This document shows positions 10,486 to 34,257 of a DNA stretch of 36,636 bases, in pieces (position 1 is the first letter of the stretch; each line of letters opens with the position of its first letter). The DNA is from Chthoniobacter flavus. GTDB taxonomy: Bacteria; Verrucomicrobiota; Verrucomicrobiia; Chthoniobacterales; CAKUMP01. A program made the translations under genes and the position numbers. Under the pieces are notes generated by a model that was not told the DNA's origin, ran no database searches, and saw nothing but the letters and a program-made list of their open reading frames with translations. The stretch spans positions 1 to 36,636 of the forward strand of contig DYRR01000003.1 in assembly GCA_020718605.1 (NCBI GenBank). Direction: 5' to 3'.

Positions 10486-10665
10486 TTATTTCTTGCCCTT
10501 CTTGGCGGGGGCTTTCTTCACCGCGACTTTTTTCTTCGCGGGAGCTTTCTTGGCAACGGCTTTTTTGGCCGGAGCTTTCTTGGCTACGGCTTTCTTGGCC
10601 GGGGCTTTCTTGGCAACGGCTTTTTTGGCCGGAGCTTTTTTGGCAGGAGCTTTTTTAGCTGGCAT
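10486..10665 (-). CDS. Small histone H1-like Lys/Ala/Pro-rich repeat protein
   Basis: [61 protein letters not shown]-like AAAGGGGGTG upstream; own terminator. Confidence 0.88.
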
Positions 10666-15153: not shown

Positions 15154-15296
15154 CCCGAATCATTACGATTCTCTGGAGGATATAAAAAAATGGGGAAATT
15201 GTGCGGCGGGCGATCCCGCTCCTCCCGGAGCGGGCTACAGGCGGCTTCGTAGCCCTGCGCGGGAGCGCAGGGATCTGCCACTGCTAATGATCGGGG
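15154..15296. repeat. Dispersed intergenic element, copy 1 (imperfect TIRs, two hairpins)
   Basis: CCCGAATCATTACGATT...CTGCTAATGATCGGGG; core GATCCCGCTCCTCCCGGAGCGGGCTACAGGCGGCTTCGTAGCCCTGCGCGGGAGCGCAGGGATCTGCC nearly identical to 28697-28764. Confidence 0.9.
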
Positions 15297-17049: not shown

Positions 17050-18117
17050 ATGGTGGAGCCCGTGTCATCCCCGATCCACATCTGTTTTGTCGAGACCGAA
17101 GAGGACGCGGAAAAGTTTTTCTGCGACCATCTGGATTGCGACGACGTGGAGCTTTCCTTCGTGTCCGGCCTCGACGAGGTGGACCCCGAAGTGGAGATTC
17201 TCTCCACCTTCATCTATTCCAAAATCGACCGGGCCTTCCTCGATGCGCATCCCATGCTGCGCCTTGTGGCGACCCGCTCCAATGCCATGGAACACATCGA
17301 CCATGCGGGGTGTTCCGAGCGCGATGTGCGGGTGATGAACGTTACCGAGTGCGGCGAAAACACGGTGGCGGAATACACCTTCGCGCTCATCCTGGCCCTC
17401 TCCCGCAGGCTGCGCGAGGCGATGGACAGCACCGCCCGCGGCAATTTTCAATACTCCGAATTGCGTGGAATCGATCTTATGGGGCGCATGCTCGGCATCG
17501 TGGGCGCGGGGCGCACCGGCCTCCACACCATCCGCATCGCCAAGGGGTTCGGAATGAATGTCCTGGCATTCGATCCGCAGCCAAATCCGGCCACCGCCCG
17601 TGACCTTGGCTTTGAATATGTCTCCTTTGATGAATTGCTGGAGCGCTCGGATATCATTTCCATCCATGCCCCCCCCGCCCCCGACACCCGCCATCTCATG
17701 GATGCCGGGGCGTTCGCCAAGTGCAAGATGGGTGCCCTGATCATCAACACCGCGCATGGCAGTCTCATCGACACCCCGGCACTGCTGAGGGCGCTCGACG
17801 AGGGGCGGATCGCCGGGGCCGGCCTCGATGTGCTCGAAGAGGAGCGCGTCATGAAAAAGGAGTCCGCCTCCATCATTGGCGAACAGATCGTGCGCAACCT
17901 GCGCGCCATCTCTTCGACCGATCAACTCCGCAAACAAAGCCCCCAGCGGGTGGCCGAACTGCGCGGGGTGATCCAAAACCGCGCCCTGATTTCCCGCCCC
18001 AATGTCGTCGTGACCCCCCATATCGCCTACAATAGCTACGAATCGGTCCAGCGCATCCTCGACACCACCCTTTCCTCCATTCATGCCGCCAAGGAAGAGA
18101 TTCTGAAAGCGCGTTGA
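17050..18117 (+). CDS. D-isomer-specific 2-hydroxyacid dehydrogenase
   Basis: GRMLGIVGAGRTGLHTIRIAKGFGMNVLAFDP, DIISIHAPPAPDTRHLMD, GALIINTAHGSLIDTPALLRALDEGRIAGAGLDVLE, NVVVTPHIAYNS. Start uncertain (17026 possible). Confidence 0.93.
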   Translation: MVEPVSSPIHICFVETEEDAEKFFCDHLDCDDVELSFVSGLDEVDPEVEILSTFIYSKIDRAFLDAHPMLRLVATRSNAMEHIDHAGCSERDVRVMNVTECGENTVAEYTFALILALSRRLREAMDSTARGNFQYSELRGIDLMGRMLGIVGAGRTGLHTIRIAKGFGMNVLAFDPQPNPATARDLGFEYVSFDELLERSDIISIHAPPAPDTRHLMDAGAFAKCKMGALIINTAHGSLIDTPALLRALDEGRIAGAGLDVLEEERVMKKESASIIGEQIVRNLRAISSTDQLRKQSPQRVAELRGVIQNRALISRPNVVVTPHIAYNSYESVQRILDTTLSSIHAAKEEILKAR

Positions 18118-28636: not shown

Positions 28637-28781
28637 CACCCGAATCATTACGATCCTTTGGAGGATATACAGAAATGGGGGGAGTGTGCGGCGGGCGATC
28701 CCGCTCCTCCCGGAGCGGGCTACAGGCTGCTTCGTAGCCCTGCGCGGGAGCGCAGGGATCTGCCGATCCTAACGATTGGGG
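28637..28781. mobile_element. Dispersed intergenic element, copy 2, with imperfect TIRs and flanking direct repeat (MITE/REPIN-like)
   Basis: CCCGAATCATTACGATCC...GGATCCTAACGATTGGGG-type ends (right end reads GATCCTAACGATTGGGG); CGTAATCA(C) directly repeated at 28629-28637 and 28782-28790. Confidence 0.82.
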
Positions 28782-29105: not shown

Positions 29106-32585
<3,480 letters not shown>

Positions 32586-32647
32586 GCGGTCCCGGAGTGT
32601 ATTCCCGCCCTTCCCGATGTCGAGCCATTGGATGGTTGTGGGCGTCG

Positions 32648-32776
32648 CCCGAATCCTGACGATCTGAAACTTGACACGTCAGCTTCCGGGCTTGGTTCCC
32701 GCACAATCAGGGGCAAGCTGCCCCTGCCACTCTGCACCCATTCCCTCCACGGGCAGATGGATCGTCAGGATTGGGG
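32648..32776. mobile_element. 129-bp MITE-like element with 17-bp TIRs and 9-bp target-site-type duplication
   Basis: CCCGAATCCTGACGATC (32648-32664) vs GATCGTCAGGATTGGGG (32760-32776): 16/17 inverted match; flanks TGGGCGTCG / TGGGTGTCG (8/9). Confidence 0.8.
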
Positions 32777-32784
32777 TGGGTGTC

Positions 32785-32863
32785 GCGCTCCTCCCGGAGC
32801 GGGCCGCAACCTGCTTCGCAGCTCTGTGCGGGAGCGCAGGGACCTGCCTTTCGTAATGTCGGC
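32785..32863. repeat. Dispersed intergenic repeat, copy 3 (right part)
   Basis: CGCTCCTCCCGGAGCGGGCCGCAACCTGCTTCGCAGCTCTGTGCGGGAGCGCAGGGACCTGCC aligns with the cores of copies 1 and 2. Confidence 0.82.
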
Positions 32864-32949: not shown

Positions 32950-34257
32950 ATGTTGAATTATATATGGCTTGGTCTGGTTCTGGCCGCCGTTCTTCTGGGC
33001 GGTTGGCAGGGGCATTTCAAGGAGGTCACCGAAGGCGCCTTTGAGATGGCCAAAACTTCCGTCACGCTTGCGATCGGCCTGGTGGGGGTGATGTCCCTGT
33101 GGCTGGGCGTGATGCGGCTGGCGGAGAAGTCCGGACTGGTGACTTTGCTGGCCCGCAGGCTCGCGCCGGTCCTGCGCCGTCTTTTCCCCGATGTGCCGGC
33201 CGAACATCCGGCCATGGGTGCCATGGTCATGAATACCGCCGCCAACATGCTCGGACTGGCCAACGCCGCCACCCCGCTGGGGCTGCGGGCCATGACGCAT
33301 CTGGAAAAGCTGAACCCCCATCCCGGCACCGCCACCAATGCGATGTGCACCTTCCTCGCCATCAACACCAGCTCGGTCCAGATCATTCCCGCAACCGCCA
33401 TCGCCATCCTTGCCTCGGCCGGATCGGCGAATCCCACGGCCATTGTCGGCACGGCACTCGTGGCCACGCTCTGCTCCACGGCCGTGGGTATCACTGCGGT
33501 GAAATTGCTGGAGCGACTGCCGGTGTTTCGAATCTCCGGGGCACCGAAGCCGCCCGGCCCGGCGGGTGATGAAACGGCGGATTCTGTGGAGGGGGATGCA
33601 TTGGCCGATCCTCCACGGCCCGTGCCCGCATGGGGCCGGGCGGTGCTCCTGTTGTTTCTGGGGTTTTTCGCTTGGATCGCCGTCCGGCAAATCATCGACA
33701 ACGGCGAGCCGCCGTTGTTTGTGGCGATGGTGGAGTCGGTCTCCCTGCTGGCGATTCCTTTTCTGCTGGGGTTATTTCCGCTGTATGCCGCGCTTCGCGG
33801 GGTGCCGGTGTATGAGGAGTTTGTCGAAGGGGCGAAGGAGGGGTTCCAGGTGGCGATCCGGATCATCCCGTTCCTTGTCGCCATTTTGGTTGCGGTGGGG
33901 ATGTTTCGTGGCGCGGGAGGCATCGGGACGTTGCGCCACCTGCTGGGACCGGCCTTGGAGTCGATCGGGTTTCCCGTGGATCTGCTCCCCATGGTGCTGG
34001 TGCGCCCGCTCAGCGGCGGTGCGTCGCTTGGGATGTTCTCCGAACTGGTCGCACATTTCGGCCCCGACCATCTCACCACCCGCATGGCCGCCACGATTTT
34101 TGGCAGCACGGAGACCACATTCTATGTCGTGGCGGTTTACTTCGGAGCGGTGGCAATCCGGCGCGCGCGGCACGCCATTGCTGCGGGACTGATCGCCGAC
34201 CTCTCCGGAGTGATCGCATCGGTGGTGGTCTGCCGCATGGTTTTTGGAGCGGCCTGA
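32950..34257 (+). CDS. Nucleoside-recognition (Gate) domain membrane protein, SpmA-SpmB fusion type
   Basis: FEMAKTSVTLAIGLVGVMSLWLGVMRLAEKSGL...MNTAANMLGLANAATPLGLRAM...NTSSVQIIPATAIAI; second half FVEGAKEGFQVAIRIIPFLVAILVAVGMFRGAG...ETTFYVVAVYFGAV. Confidence 0.88.
   Translation: MLNYIWLGLVLAAVLLGGWQGHFKEVTEGAFEMAKTSVTLAIGLVGVMSLWLGVMRLAEKSGLVTLLARRLAPVLRRLFPDVPAEHPAMGAMVMNTAANMLGLANAATPLGLRAMTHLEKLNPHPGTATNAMCTFLAINTSSVQIIPATAIAILASAGSANPTAIVGTALVATLCSTAVGITAVKLLERLPVFRISGAPKPPGPAGDETADSVEGDALADPPRPVPAWGRAVLLLFLGFFAWIAVRQIIDNGEPPLFVAMVESVSLLAIPFLLGLFPLYAALRGVPVYEEFVEGAKEGFQVAIRIIPFLVAILVAVGMFRGAGGIGTLRHLLGPALESIGFPVDLLPMVLVRPLSGGASLGMFSELVAHFGPDHLTTRMAATIFGSTETTFYVVAVYFGAVAIRRARHAIAAGLIADLSGVIASVVVCRMVFGAA

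Follow-up and report, generated by a model that had tools for sequence, protein, structure and literature searches.

The 129-bp element B, which lies between dnaE and an spmAB-like gene, is very probably a MITE that inserted, with a 9-bp target duplication, into an older and related MITE, the interiors of both being REPs that appear to have been captured. The window is the whole 36,636-nucleotide stretch of DNA that was analyzed; in the assembly, which has 284 contigs with a total of 2.46 Mb and is 93% complete, it bears the label C244. The insertion of B beside the older repeat is a genuine mini-transposon event that followed an ordinary mechanism. MITEs and REPs are both known, and what is new is the occurrence of REPs as MITE interiors and of two interiors on one set of ends.

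Structure and Setting of the B Element

The sequence-only reading had proposed a 129-bp element with 17-bp terminal inverted repeats (TIRs) related to the ends of two other repeats in the window (copies 1 and 2), with a hairpin inside and direct repeats on its flanks, and each of these features was recovered (Table 1). The TIR pair was the sole structure of its kind in the window (inverted arms of 17 bp, one mismatch allowed, spanning 60–260 bp), and no such pair was found under the same criteria in 20 shuffled windows. The plus-strand hairpin CAGGGGCA-AGC-TGCCCCTG was located at 32708–32726, and the flanking sequences, which repeat each other directly over 9 bp with a single mismatch, abut both ends of the element. 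B is short and non-coding, and its site is the intergenic region between the divergent dnaE and spmAB-like genes. A search of the window against Rfam gave no match, and a promoter and terminator scan of this intergenic region detected one weak site each, both outside B; any effect of B on the neighboring genes would be conjectural.

Table 1. Positions of the elements, repeats, and neighboring genes in the window.
Feature	Position	Strand	Evidence or remark
Copy 1, full-length A element, inverted REP dimer	15154..15296	+	Similarity to copy 2; A profile
Copy 2, full-length A element, perfect 8-bp duplication CGTAATCA	28639..28781	+	Similarity to copy 1; A profile
dnaE (DNA polymerase III alpha), left neighbor	29106..32585	-	Pfam DNA_pol3_alpha, PHP
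Copy 3, claimed left part	32613..32647	+	Similarity to A left arms non-significant
Target duplication, left copy, TGGGCGTCG	32639..32647	.	8/9 vs. right copy; flush with B end
B element, 129-bp MITE, 17-bp TIRs	32648..32776	+	TIRs 16/17; other genomic copies
B left TIR, CCCGAATCCTGACGATC	32648..32664	+	Terminal inverted repeat match to right arm
36-bp unit, single in window B, doubled at C160 and C78	32698..32733	-	Unit boundaries identical
B GTGG-type REP hairpin, GTGG-CAGGGGCA-GCT-TGCCCCTG	32708..32730	-	23/23 identical in B' (C196)
B right TIR, minus-strand reading CCCCAATCCTGACGATC	32760..32776	-	Terminal inverted repeat match to left arm
Target duplication, right copy, TGGGTGTCG	32777..32785	.	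Overlaps first two bases of copy 3 hairpin 1
Copy 3, degraded A-family core, inverted REP dimer	32783..32858	+	82% to copy 1 over 76 bp
Copy 3 hairpins	32784-32803; 32822-32841		Within + core
spmAB-like gene, right neighbor, likely ATG start 32950	32950..34257	+	Pfam Gate, two stretches

Genomic Copies and Shared Ends of the A and B Families

Copies in the genome were counted by pattern and BLAST searches together with the stretches that were fetched. A search for the 129-bp element elsewhere, as the sequence-only reading had suggested, brought the number of B-type copies or ends to seven: besides the window, a full copy with 95% identity at C129, copies at C160 and C78 that each contain an extra segment, a partial copy at the contig end of C7, a 74% identical copy, named B', at C196, and a B' end that sits at a contig end at C167. 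Among the fetched loci, family A comprised about 36 full-length copies of about 143 bp, along with truncated and core-only copies; copies 1 and 2 share 91% identity over 143 bp. The TIRs of A and B fit a single consensus, with the common ends CCCSAATCNTNACGATC, and the two families have the same duplication length, in agreement with the earlier proposal that two subtypes of the element have their ends in common. Accordingly, A and B represent two subfamilies of MITE.

Several A copies departed from the regular form. A shortened A element at C21 (L132, about 1263–1366) lacks the left middle part and retains its two ends; the repeat GGTGTCG flanks it on each side. Extra DNA or short duplications were observed between the two REPs, beside the GTAG head, at C49 (L133, about 183–330), and likewise in the A copies at C249 (L073) and C19 (L074), as if the GTAG head were a rearrangement site in these copies.

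Target Duplications and Transposition

Flanking sequences were compared for 36 entries, which stand for 33 distinct elements because three of the B elements were included once from each end. The best direct repeat flush with the ends was mostly 7–8 bp over the 36 entries, and the range was alike for A and B (7–9 bp). The mean duplication score was 3.9, compared with 0.18 for randomly re-paired flanks, for which the highest trial mean was 0.64 (n = 500). Besides the window copy, three other B copies carry their own 7–8 bp target duplications. Transposition of the A and B elements is real. With 17-bp TIRs (about 15–30 bp being usual for MITEs), a target duplication, a short non-coding sequence, and several dispersed copies, B is very probably a non-autonomous DNA transposon (MITE) that inserted by transposition and left the 9-bp target duplication in the window; the one mismatch in this duplication counts against the insertion.

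Membership among the MITEs does not require a related autonomous element. A search beside the A and B ends for an autonomous element or a transposase was negative at every end in this 93%-complete, fragmented assembly. The solo ends at C23 and C33 had no transposase, their neighbors being, by eye, a VapC-like gene, an amidase-like gene, and the gene for ribosomal protein L21. Further TIR ends with two mismatches, considered as leads to an autonomous partner, turned out to be A copies or chance matches. Since A and B share ends and duplication length, one transposase for both is the simplest reading; a single transposase, putatively of the DDE type and absent from the assembly, probably moved both subfamilies, a view that stays indirect because no candidate was found beside any end in an assembly that is incomplete and fragmented.

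Insertion of B beside the Core of Copy 3

B adjoins the left edge of the copy 3 core. The sequence-only reading had further held that excision of B and one duplication would restore a whole copy 3 at 32613–32863, and this part of the proposal did not stand. With B left in, the A profile matched copy 3 at 32774–32858 with 56.5 bits (model positions 52–137 of 144); with B and one duplication excised, it matched at positions 46–137 with 55.9 bits, and a subfamily-2 profile gave 52.9 bits both before and after excision. The left remnant was not clearly above shuffled sequence (p = 0.07 for 32613–32647 and 0.15 to 0.44 for other cuts), and neither was the right remnant (p = 0.06 to 0.35). The full-length reconstruction was accordingly rejected. 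As excision gains nothing and the flanks do not clearly exceed shuffled sequence, the host is a degraded A-family core, of which only the REP dimer is secure; core-only copies also occur at several other places in the genome. The lack of improvement upon excision counts against a nested insertion in the window.

A second, independent case, which speaks for nesting, was found at C196, where B' splits an A-type element at the position equivalent to that in the window and lies between TGACAAG duplications. Removal of B' and one duplication moved the start of the subfamily-2 match from 49 to 16 and raised the score from 85.5 to 95.7 bits. The B-type elements of the two sites are 74% alike and have different duplications, and both lie at a similar place beside A-type REP dimers (n = 2). 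Taken together, the claim of a nested insertion holds as regards a TIR element with a target duplication at the left margin of an older copy of the dispersed repeat, and is unsupported as regards the exact extent of the host. B very probably integrated at the left margin of a MITE from the related family that is older and degraded, and the nested copies give the relative ages, the REP-dimer core being older and B younger.

A different explanation of this arrangement is that 32613–32863 is one composite repeat, B plus REP dimer, that moves as a unit without any nesting. It accounts for the B-type element directly to the left of an A-type REP dimer both in the window and at C196, but B occurs without the dimer at C129 and C160, each time in its own duplication, and about 36 A elements occur without any B; the differing duplications and the 74% likeness of the B copies in the window and at C196 likewise speak against a common unit. 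This explanation was already disfavored, and we regard it as very improbable. Alternatively, a RAYT (Y1 transposase) might move the elements as REPINs, that is, as inverted REP pairs, and the ends that look like TIRs would be incidental flanks. In favor of this, the A core has the form of an inverted REP dimer, some copies consist of the core alone, and Y1 transposases are encoded in the genome. However, IS200/IS605-type transposition is not known to produce a target duplication, unlike the flush 7–8 bp duplications at these elements; moreover, the same ends occur on two unrelated interiors, and the best Y1 gene is adjoined by a different REP. For the TIR-bearing copies the duplications already speak against movement as REPINs, which is unlikely, and insertion of B as a MITE into the older element is preferred.

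REP Hairpins as Interiors of the Elements

The REP-hairpin nature of the interiors was absent from the sequence-only reading. Both interiors contain a GTRG head with a palindromic stem-loop of 8-bp stems, the head being GTAG in A and GTGG in B. The A core consists of two hairpins, GTAG-CCCGCTCC-GGGA-GGAGCGGG and GTAG-CCCTGCGC-GGGA-GCGCAGGG, which are inverted relative to each other with the GTAG heads inside. Their stems are mostly kept over about 50 copies; the second hairpin shows a few compensatory changes as well as several wobble changes. The inverted pair is thus present in the A core, and also in the C66 copies, whereas B has a single REP. At C66 (L043, 273–399), two inverted GTGG REP dimers lie in frame in an ORF with no MITE around them; this ORF gave no match in Pfam. 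As judged from head and stem, the hairpins of A and B fit the GTAG REP class. According to PMC3733652, GTAG REPs have been reported from Verrucomicrobia, and GTGG heads occur in most members of one REP family of Opitutus terrae.

Between B and B', the TIRs were identical at 33 of 34 positions and the hairpin with its head at 23 of 23, in contrast to 40 of 74 (~54%) for the remainder. Because hairpin and TIRs are kept while the remainder is not, the hairpin may be under constraint or may have been recently exchanged; an exact hairpin in an interior that has drifted this far suggests some constraint on it.

The usual agents held responsible for REPs are Y1 tyrosine transposases (RAYTs), and REP elements and MITEs are usually separate classes served by different transposases. 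No RAYT flanked by A- or B-type REPs was found among the Y1 genes of this incomplete assembly. The best Y1 gene, at C42 (L092, 267–740), is flanked by the REP CCTGGGGCGTTGCCCCAGG, which differs from those of A and B, and the REP types of this genome therefore number at least three. The occurrence of two REP types inside TIR elements with common ends, with the hairpin exact and the interior drifted, suggests REP capture by a second transposition system. It appears that TIR elements captured the REPs, which would then have been amplified as their cargo, presumably in that order.

As a separate observation, a Y1 (IS200-like) transposase domain lies in frame inside carB at C14 (L093/L135, around 17525–17758), in one long open frame that also holds short in-frame inserts with a recurring GFQPxPSGK-type peptide.

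Doubled B Copies

At C160 and C78, the 36-bp unit with the B hairpin occurs twice with the same boundaries, flanking a segment of 37 nt and 36 nt, respectively, and the two segments are mutually unrelated. The 202-bp element at C160 lies as a whole inside one perfect 8-bp duplication, so that its doubling is not a false join; the doubled copy at C78 runs off the contig end. The geometry is that of CRISPR, with identical repeats and unrelated segments of near-equal length, one segment per copy in a total of two copies.

Such copies could have arisen if the B interior were a lone repeat of the CRISPR type to which Cas1-Cas2 added one spacer, duplicating the 36-bp repeat. The shared boundaries, the unrelated segments, and the intact duplication around the C160 element all accord with spacer acquisition. 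Nevertheless, no Cas1 was found at E <= 1 in this 93%-complete genome with a search that was positive in 10 of 14 control genomes. The segments had no source elsewhere in the genome and no convincing match beyond chance in viral contigs, phages, or plasmids, as far as two segments and poorly sampled phages allow; furthermore, the hairpin forms ordinary inverted REP dimers in the reading frame at C66, and the cases are only two. We consider an origin as a CRISPR repeat to be very doubtful, and REP-directed insertion or a longer ancestral array that has shrunk is at least as likely. Somewhat broader, and still improbable, is the possibility that the 36-bp unit takes up 36–37 nt of foreign DNA and is duplicated in a CRISPR-like or RAYT-driven reaction; if this were true, B would be a mobile DNA-capture cassette. 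The doubled copies offer a small, testable case of the capture of DNA segments at a hairpin repeat.

Comparison with Known Systems and Distribution

The bacterial MITEs RUP, NEMIS, ERIC, and Nezha resemble A and B in being short, non-coding, dispersed, and intergenic, with 15–30 bp TIRs and a target duplication; A and B differ from them in that the interiors are REP hairpins and that two unrelated interiors occur on one set of ends. As described in PMC3733652 and PMC3116915, GTAG REPs and REPINs share with A and B the GTRG head beside a hairpin with an 8-bp stem, inverted dimers, dispersal, insertions within reading frames, and an occurrence in Verrucomicrobia. In contrast to those REPs, A and B copies lie mostly inside TIR elements with target duplications, and a matching RAYT was not found for their REPs. 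Like A, GTAG-15 of Anabaena variabilis and CGTC-1 of Halothiobacillus neapolitanus are REP dimers that lie regularly within a larger symmetric sequence, although the excerpts of PMC3733652 describe for them neither target duplications nor a second interior on the same outer ends. Since REP dimers in larger palindromes are already recorded there for these two species, the novelty of A and B is limited to a variant. The BrickBuilt MITE of Porphyromonas gingivalis (PMC4596501) resembles doubled B in that the MITE contains a unit in repeated form, placed between leader and tail parts; its 23-nt units follow one another without spacers, whereas doubled B has unrelated 36–37 nt segments between its units.

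B was found in none of 196 relatives of the same order, among which no genome was of the same genus or family. In these genomes an allele of the site free of the insert was not observed, a point against the insertion. The TIR pattern, searched in 388 genomes of the phylum, gave outside this genome only scattered single matches at chance level, and the GTGG REP pattern, searched in 285 genomes, gave outside this genome two single matches with one mismatch each. No match was obtained in the GTDB contigs, from which records of the source genome were possibly excluded. Among the genomes searched, the REP-bearing MITE family with common ends was seen only in this genome.

Elsewhere in the window, a 15-bp tandem repeat was observed at 10501–10665 within a reading frame, where it probably encodes a lysine-/alanine-rich protein tail on the minus strand.
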